NCBI GenBank assembly: GCA_004195035.1
Contig: SGBD01000003.1
Location: 165,981-227,485 of the forward strand
Origin: Candidatus Acidulodesulfobacterium ferriphilum
GTDB taxonomy: Bacteria > SZUA-79 > Acidulodesulfobacterales > Acidulodesulfobacteraceae
Length of the DNA stretch: 61,505 nucleotides
Direction of reading: 5' to 3'
A program made the translations under genes and the position numbers. Shown in pieces: positions 54,265 to 61,505 of the stretch. A model generated the notes under the pieces. That model had not been told where the DNA came from and did not search any database. It was given only the letters and a program-made list of their open reading frames with translations. The first letter of the stretch is position 1; each line of letters starts with the position of its first letter.

Positions 54265-55215
54265 ATGAAAAATAAATTAATATTGTTTATTTTATTGGCA
54301 GGCGCAATAATAGGAGGTTCATTATTAGCAATTTATAAGATAAACTATGACAAGACGGCGAAAAATGTAATAAATCTCGATAAGTTATATCCGCTGCCCT
54401 CGATAGTCAAAAGCCCCGCTTTAACTTATCCGCGAAAACAACTAAACCCGCGAAACCCGCTTAATCCGCAAAAAACTTTTAAGCTTGCCATAGCTTCCAT
54501 GATGTCGCCCGTTGCAAATATAAATGCTTACGAGCCTTTTGCAAAATATCTTCGCCTTGCCCTTCATATGCCGGTGAAGATTATTCAAAAGCGCACATAT
54601 TTAGCCGTAAATAATCTGCTGATAAATAATAAGATTGATTTAGCCTTTATTTGCACCGGGGCTTATGTGTACGGCGGATTAAAAAACAGGGTAAAAATAA
54701 TAGCGGTGCCGGTTATAAACGGAAAAAAAACATATAGGGCTTATATAATAGCGCATAAACCCTCAAAAATTAAATTCGTCAAGGATTTAAAAGGCGGAGT
54801 GTTTGCGTTTACCGAGCCGTTATCCAACACCGGCTATGAGTATCCAATGCGTTTTTTTAAGAATAACGGCATAAATCCGGAAATATATTTTAAACGGGTA
54901 ATGTTTACTTATAATCATACCGATTCGATTAAAGCGGTTGCGGCAGGTATTGCCGACGGCGCTTCGGTCGATTCCATAGTTTATTTTTACACATACAATA
55001 AATATAAAAGCGTGAGGCTTCACACTAAGATTATTTTGAAATCCCCTTTATTTCCTATCCCGCCCATAGTTATGTCCGATGGGGCGGATAAAAGATTAAG
55101 GGATGAAGTAAAAAAAATTCTTTTAGATATGTCAAAAAATCCGAAGGGAAAATTAATTTTAAAAAAACTTGGCATAGACGGTTTTGCCGTGCCGGATTTA
55201 AATAGATATAAGTAA
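54265..55215 (+). CDS. PhnD-like periplasmic binding protein, probable sensor for the adjacent two-component system
   Basis: A 316-residue membrane-anchored or secreted binding protein. It has an N-terminal hydrophobic segment (about residues 4-25), a spacer with Pro/Asn repeats (KQLNPRNPLNPQ), then a PhnD domain: AYEPFAKYLRLALHMPVKI, KIDLAFICTGAYVYG, ADGASVDSIVYFY and KSPLFPIPPIV. PhnD domains bind small oxyanion-like ligands. No ABC transporter genes follow; instead a kinase and regulator do. In TtrS, the tetrathionate sensor, a PhnD-like domain is part of the kinase, so here it may be a separate ligand sensor. The ligand is not known. Confidence 0.8.
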   Translation: MKNKLILFILLAGAIIGGSLLAIYKINYDKTAKNVINLDKLYPLPSIVKSPALTYPRKQLNPRNPLNPQKTFKLAIASMMSPVANINAYEPFAKYLRLALHMPVKIIQKRTYLAVNNLLINNKIDLAFICTGAYVYGGLKNRVKIIAVPVINGKKTYRAYIIAHKPSKIKFVKDLKGGVFAFTEPLSNTGYEYPMRFFKNNGINPEIYFKRVMFTYNHTDSIKAVAAGIADGASVDSIVYFYTYNKYKSVRLHTKIILKSPLFPIPPIVMSDGADKRLRDEVKKILLDMSKNPKGKLILKKLGIDGFAVPDLNRYK

Positions 55216-55254
55216 ATTAATAAATTTAAATGAAAAACCGTTAAATATTTTTTT

Positions 55255-56682
55255 ATGAGATTTTCTTTATTTTTTTCAATTATATTAATCCTTAAAAAAT
55301 TTTATAATATTTCTTTAAGGATTAAAGTTATAGGACTTGTTATATTTGCCGCTTTAATACTTGGGTTGCCTGTTATATACTTTGTAAATAAAGACTTTTC
55401 GCAACAAAATAATATACAATTAAGGCTAATGAGCAAGACTACCTCCGAACAGTTATCGTCCCAGTCCGTGAATTATATTCTTGAGGATAATATATATGCC
55501 CTGACGAGATTATTGAAAAACTCGCTTAAAAGCGATCCCGATGCGGTTTATGCTTTTATTCAAAATAAAAGAGGCGAGGTTATCGCATCTACTTTTAACG
55601 GCGGATTTCCTGCAGGCTTGCTAAAAGTTAACGATTTTAAACCGAAAAGTTTATCCACCGTTAAAATTAAAACTACCAAAGGGATGATATATGATACATC
55701 CGCACCTATTTTAGAGGGAAGGCTTGGTGTGGTGCGTGTCGGAATTTCATCCGTAAGGTCAAATCTGACCCTTTATTCGCTGATAAGATCCATATTTTTT
55801 TCCATGATATTTGCGGCCGCTTTAGCCATCATACTTTCGGGCGCAATCGCCTGGTGGGTTATGGCCCCGATAGTTAAATTATCGGAGGCTGTTAATATGG
55901 TAAAAAACGGCAGTTATGATGTAAAATTGGATGTTAAAAGGGATGATGAAATAGGAAAACTTACAAACGGCTTTAATGAAATGGTAAATAGTTTAAAAAA
56001 GGCAAATTTGGAACAAATCGAAAATGATAACTTAAGAAAAAACTTCATTACAAATGTGATAAAGGCTCAAGAAGAAGAAAGGAAAAGGATAGCAAGAGAC
56101 CTGCATGACCAGTTTGCGCAGATGCTTGCTTACATAAAAATAAGATTTGGGCTGCTTAAGGATTTAAATGACTTTAAAGAGGCCAGAAGCAGCATTATTC
56201 AAATTAGCGAAGATTTGGCAAAGGCGCTTGACCTTGTCCGCGATATAGCGAAAAGTTTAATGCCCGGAATATTGGACGAGATGGGCTTAGTCTGTGCCGC
56301 CTCCAGTTATATAGACGATATTAATAAAAAAAGCGCGGATTTTAGGGTAGATTTTTACACGGGCAGTCTTAAGGATAAAAGATTTCATCCTAATACCGAA
56401 ATTAATGTTTACAGGATAATTCAAGAAGCATTATCGAATGTCATACTTCATTCGCAAACTAATTATGCGAAAATAAGCCTTGAAGAGAGTGACGGAAAGA
56501 TAAGGGGCGCTATCGAAGATTACGGAATCGGTTTTAAATATGATATTATTAAAAAAGATAGTTTTGGAATATTCGGAATGATAGAAAGGGCAAAACTTTT
56601 AGGCGGCGATTTGGAAATAGAATCTATCCCGGGCAAAGGAACCGAGGTTAAGTTTTGGGTGCCTGCGGCGCAAATAACTTAA
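55255..56682 (+). CDS. HAMP-containing histidine kinase, NarX/DegS type (HisKA_3)
   Basis: A 475-residue inner-membrane sensor. Order: helix 1 (about residues 20-42), a periplasmic Cache-like loop (about 45-175, EVIASTFNGGFP), helix 2 (about 178-205), HAMP (about 200-255), HisKA_3 with phospho-acceptor His284 in RDLHDQF, and HATPase from about 370 (QEALSNVILHS, EDYGIGFK). It should phosphorylate the NarL-type regulator directly downstream. The preceding PhnD-like protein is a likely input partner. The gene starts 39 bases after it. Confidence 0.92.
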   Translation: MRFSLFFSIILILKKFYNISLRIKVIGLVIFAALILGLPVIYFVNKDFSQQNNIQLRLMSKTTSEQLSSQSVNYILEDNIYALTRLLKNSLKSDPDAVYAFIQNKRGEVIASTFNGGFPAGLLKVNDFKPKSLSTVKIKTTKGMIYDTSAPILEGRLGVVRVGISSVRSNLTLYSLIRSIFFSMIFAAALAIILSGAIAWWVMAPIVKLSEAVNMVKNGSYDVKLDVKRDDEIGKLTNGFNEMVNSLKKANLEQIENDNLRKNFITNVIKAQEEERKRIARDLHDQFAQMLAYIKIRFGLLKDLNDFKEARSSIIQISEDLAKALDLVRDIAKSLMPGILDEMGLVCAASSYIDDINKKSADFRVDFYTGSLKDKRFHPNTEINVYRIIQEALSNVILHSQTNYAKISLEESDGKIRGAIEDYGIGFKYDIIKKDSFGIFGMIERAKLLGGDLEIESIPGKGTEVKFWVPAAQIT

Positions 56683-56696
56683 AGGTAAATAATATA

Positions 56697-57365
56697 ATGA
56701 TAACAATAGTTTTGGTGGATGATCATCATCTGATGCTTTCCGGCCTGAAAATGATAATAAGCGGACAGGAGGATTTACAGGTAGTAGGAACGGCAAGCGA
56801 TACAATATCTGCTATAGAGGCCGTTAAAACAAACAAGCCGGATGTCATAGTTCTTGACATTTCTTTGCCTAAAGCCAACGGGCTCGATATGATATCCCGG
56901 CTTAAAAGTGTTTCTCCAGAATCAAAAATACTAATTTTAACCATGTACGAAGACAGGCAGTATGTTTATAAAGCGCTTGAAAATGGCGCTCTGGGTTATA
57001 TACCCAAAAAAGCGGCAGAACATGATTTGATTTACTCTATAAGAACGGTGGCAGGAGGAGAATTATATATTCATCCGTCTTTAGTCAAAAGCTTAATTAA
57101 TAAAGAGGACAACGAATATCGTTATAACGATAACGGCTCGTCAAACAGGGAAAGATCATTATGGGATAGTTTAAGCCCGAGAGAACAGGATGTTTTGATA
57201 TTTGTTGCAGAGGGTTTTTCAAACAAAGAGATTGGCGAAAAACTATTCATTAATGAAAAAACGGCAGCTACCCACCGTTTAAGGGGGATGGAGAAATTGG
57301 ATCTTTTAAACAAATCCGACCTTGTCGATTTAATTTTCTTTAAGCTTAAACTTCCGAAAAAGTAA
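56697..57365 (+). CDS. NarL/FixJ-family response regulator
   Basis: A 222-residue DNA-binding regulator. The receiver domain has DDHH at residues 8-11, phospho-acceptor Asp54 in VLDISLP, and the conserved Thr (LILTMYED) and Lys (PKKAAEHD). The LuxR-type HTH is LSPREQDVLIFVAEGFSNKEIG. I chose the ATG at 56697 behind aaagg; an ATG at 56655 is inside the kinase gene. It probably activates the respiratory operon that starts 275 bases downstream. Confidence 0.93.
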   Translation: MITIVLVDDHHLMLSGLKMIISGQEDLQVVGTASDTISAIEAVKTNKPDVIVLDISLPKANGLDMISRLKSVSPESKILILTMYEDRQYVYKALENGALGYIPKKAAEHDLIYSIRTVAGGELYIHPSLVKSLINKEDNEYRYNDNGSSNRERSLWDSLSPREQDVLIFVAEGFSNKEIGEKLFINEKTAATHRLRGMEKLDLLNKSDLVDLIFFKLKLPKK

Positions 57366-57558
57366 TAAAAGCCTTATAAACCGGCATAAATTCAAATAAA
57401 TCCGCAATTTAAGTTTCTTTCGTAATATTTTTTCTTCACTATATTTCCGATTTTTTCTTACAAAAATCATATTTTGTATTATTTAAAATAAGTCTGTCTC
57501 GTGATAAAAGTAATAATAGTCGAGATGATTTTAATGCGGCGATGGATTGACTTCCATT

Positions 57559-57589
57559 ATATTAGTATTACACTTAATATTAGTATTAC
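57559..57589 (+). promoter_or_regulatory. Tandem dyad sites upstream of the respiratory operon
   Basis: atattagtattac occurs at 57559-57571 and again at 57577-57589, 18 bases apart. Each holds the dyad taata-N4-tatta (the first with one mismatch), and on the minus strand tactaat fits the NarL heptamer TACYNMT. A -10-like TATACT (57590-57595) follows at once, so the sites overlap a weak -35. The 275-base gap 57366-57640 has no gene. Confidence 0.55.
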
Positions 57590-57640
57590 TATACTTAAAG
57601 TAAATTCAGGATAATTTTAATATTATTAGGGGGCAAATGA

Positions 57641-58777
57641 ATGAAAAAAGAAAATGACAGGGAAAACAAAAGGGTGAAAGGGGAGGAAAAAGTAAGCGAA
57701 AGGGGAAAGAGCGAAAAATCAAAAAGGAGAAAATTTCTTAAAATGCTCGGGTTAGGAGGATTGGCCGCAGCCGCCTTCGGGTTTGCCGGTTTATCAAAAT
57801 CCAAAGAGGCATTAGCCGCCCCTTTGAAAAAGGAAAAAGGGAAAAAAAGCGGATTAAATACGCCGGAAAAAGGAACGGGAGTTCCGACGGGCGCTTTGAA
57901 AAATAAGAGATGGATGGGGTGGATGAATCCGTCGCAGGATGTAAACGACGGATGGAACGAGTGGATGAGGACGATAGAAAACCCTCATAACCTTCCTATC
58001 TGGCACGATAATTTTTACACCATTAAAGATTCAAAACCGAAACATCACTGGGCAATGGTTATGGATTTAAGAAAATGCGTCGGATGTCAGGCTTGCGTTA
58101 TAGCGTGTAAAAGCGAAAACAATGTCCCTCTTACGGTTTTTAGAACCGTGGTTCAGGTAATGGAGACGGGACATATGGTTCCCGATAAAGACGGGATAGT
58201 TGTTACGGACGAGGGAAATTTTACTCCCGATACTAAAAGATTCAATTTGCCTAGGATGTGCAATCACTGCGATCACCCCTCGTGTGTGGAGGTGTGTCCG
58301 GTAAAAGCAACTTTCAAGAGGCAGGACGGTATAGTTTTAATAGACTATAATGTTTGCATAGGGTGCGGAACCTGTCTTCAAGCCTGTCCTTACGATATGC
58401 GTTTTTTTAATCCGGTTCAGCATACGGCGGATAAATGCACATTTTGCGTTCACAGAATAGACAGGGGGCTTATGCCTGCGTGCGTAACTTCATGCGTCGG
58501 AAGAGCGAGAAAGTTCGGGGATTTAAACGACCCCAAGACCGAGGTTTCGAGGCTGATAGCCGGATATCCGACTTCGAAACTTAAAATTTCCACTGGAAAC
58601 GATCCTCAGGTTTTCTATATAGATTTAAACGGGATGTTAGTCGATCCGACTAACCCCGAAGAGGTTAAAATGGTTTATACTTACGCAATGTCTTTTAATA
58701 CCACCGCATATCAAAAATTAGGCGGGACAGCCGTGCTGCCCATCGTGGAGGAAATGGAAGACCCTTATAAAGATTAA
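57641..58777 (+). CDS. Tat-exported four-cluster ferredoxin subunit (PsrB/TtrB/PhsB-like)
   Basis: The electron-transfer subunit of a periplasmic molybdoenzyme complex. The 378-residue product begins with about 27 charged residues, then a Tat signal (RRKFLKMLGLGG, ending near ALAA). The ferredoxin core starts near residue 140. Four clusters are predicted: Cys146 opens CVGCQACVIAC, followed by CNHCDHPSCVEVC, CIGCGTCLQAC, and CTFC with ACVTSC. Electrons pass between the NrfD-type membrane subunit and the molybdenum subunit. The N-terminal extension before the twin Arg is unusually long; the start could be later, but no better SD-supported codon is visible. gggggc precedes the ATG. Confidence 0.92.
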   Translation: MKKENDRENKRVKGEEKVSERGKSEKSKRRKFLKMLGLGGLAAAAFGFAGLSKSKEALAAPLKKEKGKKSGLNTPEKGTGVPTGALKNKRWMGWMNPSQDVNDGWNEWMRTIENPHNLPIWHDNFYTIKDSKPKHHWAMVMDLRKCVGCQACVIACKSENNVPLTVFRTVVQVMETGHMVPDKDGIVVTDEGNFTPDTKRFNLPRMCNHCDHPSCVEVCPVKATFKRQDGIVLIDYNVCIGCGTCLQACPYDMRFFNPVQHTADKCTFCVHRIDRGLMPACVTSCVGRARKFGDLNDPKTEVSRLIAGYPTSKLKISTGNDPQVFYIDLNGMLVDPTNPEEVKMVYTYAMSFNTTAYQKLGGTAVLPIVEEMEDPYKD

Positions 58778-58818
58778 CCAAGTTCAATTTTAAAATTTTA
58801 AAGCAAGGAGTAAATATT

Positions 58819-59988
58819 ATGACTTTATTAAACGGTTTTTTAGAAAATCCGGTGTGGGGTTTGCCGATAGTGATTTATCCGTTTCTGTCGGGTCTTGTCG
58901 CAGGGTCGTTTGTCGTTGCATCGCTATCGCACCTTTTTGGAATGGAAAAATTCAGGCCGTTAGCTAAACTTGCGGCGATAGTCAGTTTTGCGATGCTTAT
59001 ACTTGCGGCGCAGGCGCCTCTGGCAGACGCGCTCCAGCCTTCGAGGGCTATATGGGAATTATATTTCAGGGACCATTTTCCATACTCGCCTTTGGGCATG
59101 TTCATTATTATATGGACGCTTTATATAATCCTTATGCTTTTTGAAATGTTTTATCTGTTCAGGGTTTCTAATATAAAAAGGGCGGAAGAAGATAGCGGAT
59201 TCAGAGGAAAATTGGCAAATTTCTTTACGCTCGGAAATAAAGATTTATCGGAAAAAGCTGTAAAAAAAGACCATAAAGCCCTTATGGTTATAGCCGCACT
59301 GGGCATAGGACTGGCGTTTTTGTTTCACGGATATGTCGGATTTTTATTCGGCGCCATAAAAGCAAGGCCGTTGTGGTCGGATCCTCTTATACCGGTTTTA
59401 TTTATAACATCGGCTATCGTTTCTGGTATTGCGCTTATGGGCGTACTATACGTGATAGGCTTTTCGTTTTATTCCGATAAAAATAAGGTAAAACCTGAAA
59501 CCGTGTATGAACTTAATAAAATTTTGTTGTTAATGATAGGATTCGACCTGTTTTTCGACTTAACCGAATGGCTTTATTCGGTTCGTTCTTACGCTCCTAA
59601 AGATTTATACGAAGGATGGCACGCTGTTTTCAGCACGGGTGCAGGGGGCGTTTTAGCTTTTAATTACCATTTTATGCAAATAACGCTTGGGCTTATTATA
59701 CCTGGACTGCTGCTTATTTCAAAAAAAGTAAGGAATTCAAAGGTATGGACGGTAATAATAGGCTTGCTGGTTTTAGCGGGTGTTTGGGCAATGAGGTTTA
59801 ACACCGTCGTAGGCGCGCAGCTCCAGACAAAAATCGGGCAGGGGACGGTTCTTTTCGATATTCCGTGGTTAGGTTACGACGGATATATAACCGGAATCGG
59901 ATTATTTGCATTAGGCATCTTTTTAATATTCGTTTTCGGCTATTTATTGGGGTGGGAAGATAAACCCGAATTAACCGGTAATAATTAA
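58819..59988 (+). CDS. NrfD/PsrC-type quinone-linked membrane subunit
   Basis: A 389-residue protein with about nine or ten membrane helices. NrfD-family features include the N-terminal ENPVWGLPIVIYPFLSGLVAG (quoted in part, WGLPIVIYPF), the helix pair around HGYVGFLFGAIKARPLW, and ITSAIVSGIALM. It anchors the complex and exchanges electrons with the quinone pool. It lies between the ferredoxin and molybdenum genes, the usual order in Psr and Ttr operons. A good SD, aaggag, precedes the ATG. Confidence 0.93.
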   Translation: MTLLNGFLENPVWGLPIVIYPFLSGLVAGSFVVASLSHLFGMEKFRPLAKLAAIVSFAMLILAAQAPLADALQPSRAIWELYFRDHFPYSPLGMFIIIWTLYIILMLFEMFYLFRVSNIKRAEEDSGFRGKLANFFTLGNKDLSEKAVKKDHKALMVIAALGIGLAFLFHGYVGFLFGAIKARPLWSDPLIPVLFITSAIVSGIALMGVLYVIGFSFYSDKNKVKPETVYELNKILLLMIGFDLFFDLTEWLYSVRSYAPKDLYEGWHAVFSTGAGGVLAFNYHFMQITLGLIIPGLLLISKKVRNSKVWTVIIGLLVLAGVWAMRFNTVVGAQLQTKIGQGTVLFDIPWLGYDGYITGIGLFALGIFLIFVFGYLLGWEDKPELTGNN

Positions 59989-60005
59989 AATAAGGAGGAT
60001 TTGTA

Positions 60006-61505
60006 ATGTCAATGAATAGAAGAGATTTTTTAAAATATACGACATTCGGCGCGGCGGCGGTTTTTACCGGAGCTGGTTTGACCCAGTGGGCAGGCGGGAT
60101 GTTTCATTATGAGGGCGAATATGTTTTTCCCGGCAGGACCGAAAACTGGCCCAAGGTGGATGTAAAATTTACCACCTGCAAGCAGTGCCATAGCGACTGT
60201 GCGGCTATGTCGAGGGTGTTTAACGGAACGCTCATTAAATTGGACGGCAGTCCTTACGATATACAGACGACACAGCCGAGCATTCCTTATTCTACGCCCG
60301 TGAACGAGGCAATAGCGTATGTCGGAACAAATTTTGACACAGCTAAGCCTTTCGTTGACGGCGCTCATTCCCTGTGTCCCAGAGGTCAGGCGGGAAGGCA
60401 GGATGCTTACGACCCCTACAGAATCTATATGCCCCTAAAAAGAGTGGGGGAAAGGGGCTCCAAGAAGTTTAAAACGATTTCCTACGAACAGCTTATAAGC
60501 GAGGTGGTGAACGGAGGCTATCTCTTTAAGGACATCCCCGGTGAAGAAAAGCGGTTTGTCGAGGGGTTTAAGCACCTGTGGAACGGAGGCGAGGGCAGGT
60601 TCGTCCCCGCAAATCCCAGATACCCCGACTTCGGACCTAAAACCAACCAGTATGTTTCTTACTGGGGCAGGGGCGAGGGAGGCATAGCCAACTTAATGAC
60701 CAGATTCGCCAATGCCCTGGGTTCGGTAAACGCCCTGCCCCATGTCTCTATCTGCGAACTCTCCCACCATGTTTCGACATTCAGGACATTTCCCGGAACC
60801 AACATGCTGAAGCCTGATCTGCCCAATTCGGAGTATTTATTAGTATTCGGGGCAAACTATCTGGAAGCCAATTTCCCTATGCAGACCTTGGCGAGAAGGT
60901 CCGTTGCCGCCACCTCGTCGGGCAAATTAAAAATAGTCGTGATAGATGTAAGGGCGGGCAATCAGGTAGCCCATGCCGATAAGTATATTCCGATAGCCCC
61001 CGGGGGAGACGGGGCTTTAGCCATGGGGATGCTCAGGTGGATAATAGAAAACAAACGATACGACGAAAATTTCCTTAGCAACTTAAACCACGGCTCAGCC
61101 AATAGCAACGGAGAGCCCAACTTTTCCAATGCGTCCTACTTAATAGTTGCGGATGAATCCGATAAGGATTTTGCCAGGTTCTTAAAGAGCGGAAGCTCCT
61201 TTTACGCCATAGACAAATTTAGCAGAAAGCCCGTCCTGGCTTCCGCTTCCGCAAAAGGCGAGCTGTGGCCCGCCGGATTTTTATCGCTTAAGCCCGTAAA
61301 CGTAAACGGGGTTAACTGCATGACGGGCATGCAGATGTTATGGGCGGAGCTCGTCAAGCATACCATAGACGAATATGCCAAAGAAGCGGGACTTGCCCCG
61401 AGGGTAATACCCGAGCTTGCATCCGAGCTTAAATACGACGAACCCCTCTTGAATGTTTCTATCGACAGGAGCAAAGCTCAAAACATGGGTATAACTATGC
61501 AGGAA
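60006..61505 (+). CDS. Molybdopterin oxidoreductase catalytic subunit (PsrA/PhsA/TtrA/ArrA-like), 3' end outside window
   Basis: The first 500 codons of the catalytic subunit; the frame is open to the last base. A Tat signal NRRDFLK starts at residue 4. A [4Fe-4S] site is C-x2-C-x3-C (CKQCHSDC) with the fourth Cys in HSLCPRGQAG. Cys250 in HVSICELSHH is at the likely position of the molybdenum ligand, which is Cys in sulfur and arsenic oxyanion reductases. The large insert before it resembles TtrA-type enzymes. It starts behind aaggagg. The substrate (tetrathionate, thiosulfate, polysulfide, arsenate or another) cannot be fixed without the rest of the gene. GC content rises to about 50-57 % after roughly 60400. 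Confidence 0.92.
   Translation, partial: MSMNRRDFLKYTTFGAAAVFTGAGLTQWAGGMFHYEGEYVFPGRTENWPKVDVKFTTCKQCHSDCAAMSRVFNGTLIKLDGSPYDIQTTQPSIPYSTPVNEAIAYVGTNFDTAKPFVDGAHSLCPRGQAGRQDAYDPYRIYMPLKRVGERGSKKFKTISYEQLISEVVNGGYLFKDIPGEEKRFVEGFKHLWNGGEGRFVPANPRYPDFGPKTNQYVSYWGRGEGGIANLMTRFANALGSVNALPHVSICELSHHVSTFRTFPGTNMLKPDLPNSEYLLVFGANYLEANFPMQTLARRSVAATSSGKLKIVVIDVRAGNQVAHADKYIPIAPGGDGALAMGMLRWIIENKRYDENFLSNLNHGSANSNGEPNFSNASYLIVADESDKDFARFLKSGSSFYAIDKFSRKPVLASASAKGELWPAGFLSLKPVNVNGVNCMTGMQMLWAELVKHTIDEYAKEAGLAPRVIPELASELKYDEPLLNVSIDRSKAQNMGITMQE

Follow-up and report, generated by a model that had tools for sequence, protein, structure and literature searches.

A PhnD-fold sensor of the AioX/ArxX/ArrX family beside a TtrA-family molybdoenzyme operon in an acid-mine bacterium

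The right end of the 227,485-base contig C3 of Candidatus Acidulodesulfobacterium ferriphilum (genome 1.87 Mb, 97% complete), analyzed here as a window of 61,505 nucleotides, harbors a sensory trio followed by a molybdoenzyme operon. The six genes encode, in order, a PhnD-fold protein (X), a kinase (S), a LuxR-type regulator (R), a ferredoxin with a twin-arginine translocation (TAT) signal (B), an NrfD protein (C), and a molybdenum subunit (A). By its sequence, X is a member of the AioX/ArxX/ArrX sensor family, and the X-S-R trio is very probably dedicated to the control of the B-C-A operon. Three-component sensing as such is of a known kind, because the closest solved relatives of X are sensors of X-S-R arsenic systems; the pairing with a TtrA-family enzyme is unusual. 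Since a sensor of an arsenic-sensing family appears to control an enzyme of the tetrathionate reductase family, the pair is a candidate for an unrecognized arsenate (or sulfur) respiration system in this acid-mine bacterium. No description of X-S-R paired with a TtrA-family enzyme was found in the literature, which is weak evidence given incomplete journal coverage, and the main text of the 2019 description of the order mentions neither tetrathionate nor arsenate.

The gene order had been proposed in a first-pass annotation of the DNA. All six genes are confirmed as open reading frames, with the correction that A is truncated and its end chimeric. The features of the locus are as follows.

54265..55215, + strand: X, periplasmic sensor with a PhnD fold, AioX/ArxX/ArrX family (PF12974, 1.5e-54; structure matches, tree, and pocket)
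55255..56682, + strand: S, sensor histidine kinase (HAMP, HisKA_3, and HATPase_c; two transmembrane stretches flank a periplasmic domain of ~130 amino acids)
56697..57365, + strand: R, NarL/LuxR-type response regulator (receiver and GerE)
57423..57486, + strand: conserved noncoding block between R and the ferredoxin gene, putative operator/promoter (nearly invariant in six loci)
57458..57484, + strand: core operator box TTACAAAAATCATATTTTGTATTATTT, pattern YTACAAAAATCNNNNTTTNNNNTATTT (pattern search in 30 genomes)
57641..58777, + strand: B, TtrB-like electron-transfer subunit of the ferredoxin type, with TAT signal (228 bits with the TtrB model, cut-off 416)
58819..59988, + strand: C, NrfD-type membrane quinol subunit (PF03916, 1.7e-34)
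60006..61430, + strand: A, first 475 of about 1032 residues of the molybdenum catalytic subunit (full-length orthologue L036:13372-16470)
61431..61505, + strand: chimeric contig end outside the catalytic gene (last ~75 bases)

The sensor protein and its partners

Among all solved structures, X matches ArrX best (1.2e-42), followed by AioX (3.3e-34), while PhnD, PtxB, and HtxB trail far behind and true transport proteins reach 7e-14 or weaker. In a tree that includes TtrS and chemoreceptor domains, X joins the AioX/ArxX/ArrX clade with a support of 98/96. The AioX pocket is built from Tyr88, Cys106, Tyr131, Ser161, Ser163, His192, and Asp210 (PMC5908839), and its counterpart in X consists of Y112, C130, Y157, S187, T189, H218, and D236. 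Six of the seven residues are identical, and the sole change, from Ser163 to threonine, is shared with Sulfuricella ArxX. The arsenite-binding Cys106 of AioX is kept (C130 in X) in all aligned SZUA-79 (SZ)-type sequences; it is absent from TtrS and the chemoreceptors, and TtrS lacks the pocket residues altogether. The N-terminus of X has a hydrophobic helix, presumably a signal peptide or an anchor. In calorimetry, ArrX bound arsenate and, weakly, phosphate, and AioX and ArxX bound arsenite (PMC5908839). Binding of arsenite or arsenate is a candidate property of X.

At first pass the trio had been taken for a split TtrS-like sensor; on such a reading, a TtrS kinase would have lost its PhnD domain to a separate gene. 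Both sensors are indeed PhnD-fold proteins that adjoin B-C-A operons, but a forced clade of X and TtrS is rejected (p-AU 0.026, a modest value from a tree with long branches), and the kinases differ in type: TtrS carries HisKA, whereas S carries HAMP and HisKA_3 with a periplasmic domain of its own, whose match to sCache_3_2 stays below the cut-off. In loci that lack X, the same enzyme is accompanied by a regulator and by relatives of S that are about 40-42% identical to it across nearly the full length. X therefore appears to be an input added to a pre-existing two-component system, not one split off from it. Tree, pocket, and kinase type together lead to the rejection of a split TtrS, which is very improbable. 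For R, the start at ATG 56697 is judged most likely over TTG 56655.

That X belongs to an ABC transporter as its binding protein and lies beside the kinase by chance, as the family name of PF12974 might suggest, is almost certainly wrong and is rejected: X is the one PF12974 match in the genome, no PhnE match exceeds the cut-off in any genome of the order, X scores 115 bits against the PhnD model TIGR03431 (cut-off 261), and X and S are adjacent in every X locus examined. The earlier remark that no ABC transporter accompanies the PhnD protein thus holds. A PhnD gene followed by phnC/phnE elsewhere and separated from the kinase in relatives had been named as grounds for refutation; given the single PF12974 match and the lack of PhnE, the dedicated sensor survives this, and eight of the 30 genomes keep the X-kinase pair.

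Fusions of ~640 amino acids that carry a PhnD domain in sister genomes were considered as TtrS-like and rejected, as they are chemoreceptors. Chemoreceptors with a C-terminal PhnD domain lie near an ArsB gene in several genomes of the order (L046:1050-2972, L049:4095-6020, L055:9379-11301) and are possible arsenic or phosphate chemoreceptors.

Wiring and operator among relatives

The relatives searched comprise 30 genomes, one family of 30 species that makes up the whole phylum in the set; most are fragmented metagenome-assembled genomes, and several X loci stop at contig ends. X is found at >70% identity in eight of them, each time with the kinase gene directly next. Ferredoxin and NrfD genes follow downstream of the regulator in six of the seven loci whose contig extends past it. 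In the exception (L043), the three enzyme genes are missing, and a chaperone gene and a gene for a predicted porin-like outer-membrane barrel come next; the same two genes come after the enzyme in two other genomes. This survey of synteny bears out the proposal of a binding protein, kinase, and regulator dedicated to the molybdoenzyme operon.

Between R and B, a block of about 64 bases is near-invariant over six loci, and its flanks vary. The operator was identified by comparison of sequences. Its pattern YTACAAAAATCNNNNTTTNNNNTATTT has 24 matches in the 30 genomes and none when reversed. Seven fall in X loci, 16 in enzyme operons without X (where inspected, ahead of cytochrome and cytochrome-d1 genes), and one upstream of dsrAB in G013. 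The dsrAB genes of G020 and G015 are preceded by weaker copies that score 29.5 and 25.1 bits, respectively, with shuffles at ≤1.5 bits, and G012 and G022 have a further degraded or cut copy there; a scan of the upstream regions in G000 and G010 gave none ahead of dsrAB. The matches thus mark the regulon of X loci and enzyme operons, plus dsrAB in one sister species and, more weakly, in two more. The window genome has the operator just once, ahead of the B-C-A operon. dsrAB is present in close relatives, and dsrA in 23 of the 30 genomes.

In one enzyme operon without X (L086:3386-8298), cytochrome d1-like proteins occur together with a radical SAM protein and c-type cytochromes, and related operators lie upstream; similar loci include L084, L089, L091-L094, and L098. 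The other X-S-R loci examined adjoin Aio, Arx, or Arr genes or a PhsA-like enzyme. The latter group joins X-S-R to a PhsA-like molybdoenzyme with ferredoxin-type genes and neither ArrA nor ArxA (L100:1353-10516, with NrfD annotated; L116:1-12082; L117:130-12854), and in Azoarcus KH32C this locus adjoins arsenic resistance (ars) genes. In a further arrangement, ArrX lies upstream of arrAB next to a fusion of a HAMP protein and a sigma-54 activator (L061:129-3263, domains scanned; L118:6191-9337 and L119:6494-9628, similar by BLAST), where it apparently signals to a membrane-bound activator without a kinase.

The enzyme

The catalytic gene A is cut off where window and contig end. Its frame diverges from that of its relatives beyond residue 475 (about 61431), for which reason the last ~75 bases are regarded as a chimeric end. 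The end of contig C5 carries the C-terminal part of such a catalytic gene, followed by genes for a NarJ-like chaperone, TauE, and a flavin oxidoreductase, the latter two 98% and 89% identical to genes downstream of the enzyme in G010. The C5 fragment is probably the remainder of the window operon, with a presumed C3-C5 junction.

A possesses a TAT signal, the N-terminal iron–sulfur cysteine motif CKQCHSDC, and a molybdenum-ligand cysteine (Cys 250) in CELSHH. Full-length orthologues match the TtrA model best, yet at 552-578 bits they stay below the cut-off of 1750 (NF011567); with the ArrA model NF041714 they reach 110-116 bits (cut-off 1600) and fall outside the ArrA/ArxA clade. A phylogeny of the catalytic subunit, suggested at first pass, places the SZ enzymes on the TtrA side, separate from ArrA/ArxA and PhsA-like enzymes, in a tree that left out SrdA and the Pyrobaculum enzyme; it stops at a three-way split of SZ enzymes, ars-island enzymes, and the TtrA clade. 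According to PMC2500031, B-C-A order and a TAT signal on B characterize the Ttr clade; the window operon has both. Published trees name the clade TtrA/SrdA/alternative arsenate reductase (PMC10100899, PMC7331816). It includes the selenate reductase SrdA (PMC10100899), and for one member of the family an archaeal arsenate reductase function has been proposed (PMC10100899, PMC9751042).

The nearest plasmid relatives of A belong to operons in ars islands beside arsDABC, in Citrobacter arsenatis LY-1, Enterobacter ludwigii pEL-ars2, and a Salmonella plasmid; a copy from E. coli has lost its ars neighbors. A is 37-39% identical to the ars-island enzymes of C. arsenatis and pEL-ars2 versus 31-32% to TtrA. 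Five of six SZ enzymes have the molybdenum-ligand loop IC(E/D)L(S/T)HH, and the window enzyme and the ars-island enzyme both have ICELSHH, in contrast to YCG(L/G)(A/S)(Y/F)R in the TtrA clade (YCGLAYR in TtrA itself). The loop is suggestive but no proof, because counts of shared columns (22 for SZ and ars-island enzymes, 34 for SZ enzymes and TtrA, 16 for ars-island enzymes and TtrA) alone favor neither relation. A search of a phage collection gave weak dimethyl sulfoxide reductase-type matches at most.

In G027 the catalytic subunit (L095:9328-12441) has a serine in place of the molybdenum-ligand cysteine of its relatives (VSISEPSYR). G010 has two paralogous operons (L036:10994-16470 and L084:7584-13179) whose catalytic subunits are 88% identical, while ferredoxin and NrfD of the second (L084) are about 66% identical to those of the window; this suggests gene conversion of the catalytic gene. 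The TtrA-like B-C-A operons in ars islands of conjugative enterobacterial plasmids from C. arsenatis, Enterobacter (pEL-ars2), and Salmonella (L062:10031-15426, L063:10031-15426, and L122:5031-10426) are candidates for arsenate respiration without ArrA.

Proposed mechanism, ligand, and known systems

The gene order, the family placements, the conserved pocket, and the operator with its limitation to this regulon are features of the sequences themselves and allow the following mechanism to be proposed. X would bind an oxyanion outside the inner membrane and presumably contact and act on the periplasmic part of the HAMP kinase S. S would phosphorylate R, which would bind the operator ahead of B and switch B-C-A on, activation being assumed over repression. 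The operon would encode a TtrA-family, quinol-linked enzyme that works in the direction of reduction on the oxyanion sensed by X. The likeliest ligand and substrate would be an arsenic oxyanion, arsenate first, and this complete scheme is the favored one, held tentatively at somewhat less than an even chance. The sensor family, the pocket, the ars-island relatives, the loop, and an ArsB in the genome speak for arsenic. As ArsB occurs in 26 of the 30 genomes, including that of the window, a lack of arsenite efflux offers no argument against it, while Acr3 is absent from all 30.

Several points weigh against arsenic. No ars genes lie beside the window operon, the enzyme family is known best for tetrathionate, and the three-way split ties A no closer to the ars-island enzymes than to TtrA. 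In the sensor family the pocket residues by themselves do not fix specificity (PMC5908839), the thiol of the pocket could also react with tetrathionate on chemical grounds, and the AlphaFold model of X has a mean pLDDT of 42. The operators ahead of dsrAB in G013 and, weaker, in G020 and G015 and the TauE gene downstream of the enzyme in G010 fit sulfur. With the same wiring, X might have been adapted to recognize a sulfur oxyanion (tetrathionate, thiosulfate, or sulfite); the enzyme would then be a reductase of sulfur oxyanions that feeds Dsr. The B-C-A order of a TtrA-family enzyme and the wide occurrence of dsrA agree with this, but X is an arsenic-family sensor with an intact pocket, ArrX, ArxX, and AioX bound neither tetrathionate nor thiosulfate in calorimetry (PMC5908839), and the loop is unlike that of TtrA. 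The dsrAB box is missing in the window genome, and the boxes ahead of dsrAB in sister species allow two readings: the enzyme and Dsr may be activated together as parts of a single sulfur pathway, or Dsr may be controlled, possibly repressed, when a better acceptor is present. The sulfur ligand suggested at first pass is thus a substantial possibility, rated below arsenic.

Another oxyanion (selenate, antimonate, or a phosphate-like ion) as ligand and substrate is improbable. SrdA lies within the enzyme family (PMC10100899), ArrX binds phosphate weakly (PMC5908839), and Enterobacter ludwigii Sb-9, which has a related ars-island enzyme, originates from tailing mud, but the window locus holds no positive evidence for such an ion.

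There are reports of arsenate respiration without ArrA, but the enzyme is not agreed on (PMC9751042). Two independent lines, the arsenic-family sensor and the loop common with the ars-island enzymes, point to TtrA-family candidates, and named proteins and an operator are now at hand. A further claim, doubtful but conceivable, is that the window operon encodes a TtrA-family arsenate reductase for bacterial respiration under an ArrX-type three-component sensor, and that the ars-island relatives on enterobacterial plasmids supply the enzyme that is missing in arsenate respirers without ArrA, such as some Citrobacter. If the ligand is a sulfur compound, the AioX/ArrX fold would have been adapted to a new oxyanion and linked to the control of Dsr in sulfate reducers of acid mines, and the case would caution against calling such enzymes tetrathionate reductases on the strength of homology.

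As in ArrXSR, AioXSR, and ArxXSR, a PhnD-fold X with an arsenic pocket is followed by kinase and regulator beside a molybdoenzyme operon, and the ArrR proteins of Chrysiogenes and Firmicutes are likewise not AAA+ regulators (PMC5908839). The first-pass notion of a poorly described sensing variant therefore fails for the three-component principle, well described for arsenic (PMC5908839), and stands for the pairing. Unlike in these systems, the enzyme is of the TtrA family and not Aio, Arx, or Arr, the regulator is NarL-type, the kinase is HisKA_3, and X has a long N-terminal helix and its own branch. TtrSR-TtrBCA shares B-C-A order, the TAT signal on B, the enzyme family, PhnD-fold sensing, and a LuxR-type regulator; in the window, however, the sensor stands apart as a protein from a different clade, neither fused to the kinase nor TtrS-like, and kinase and molybdenum-ligand loop differ. 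The enterobacterial ars-island operons share the loop and B-C-A order and include the nearest plasmid relatives of A, yet the identity is only 37-39%, and they have a divergent ars-operon regulator gene instead of X-S-R. SrdBCA selenate reductase and the archaeal alternative arsenate reductase are of the same enzyme family by published trees alone (PMC10100899, PMC7331816).

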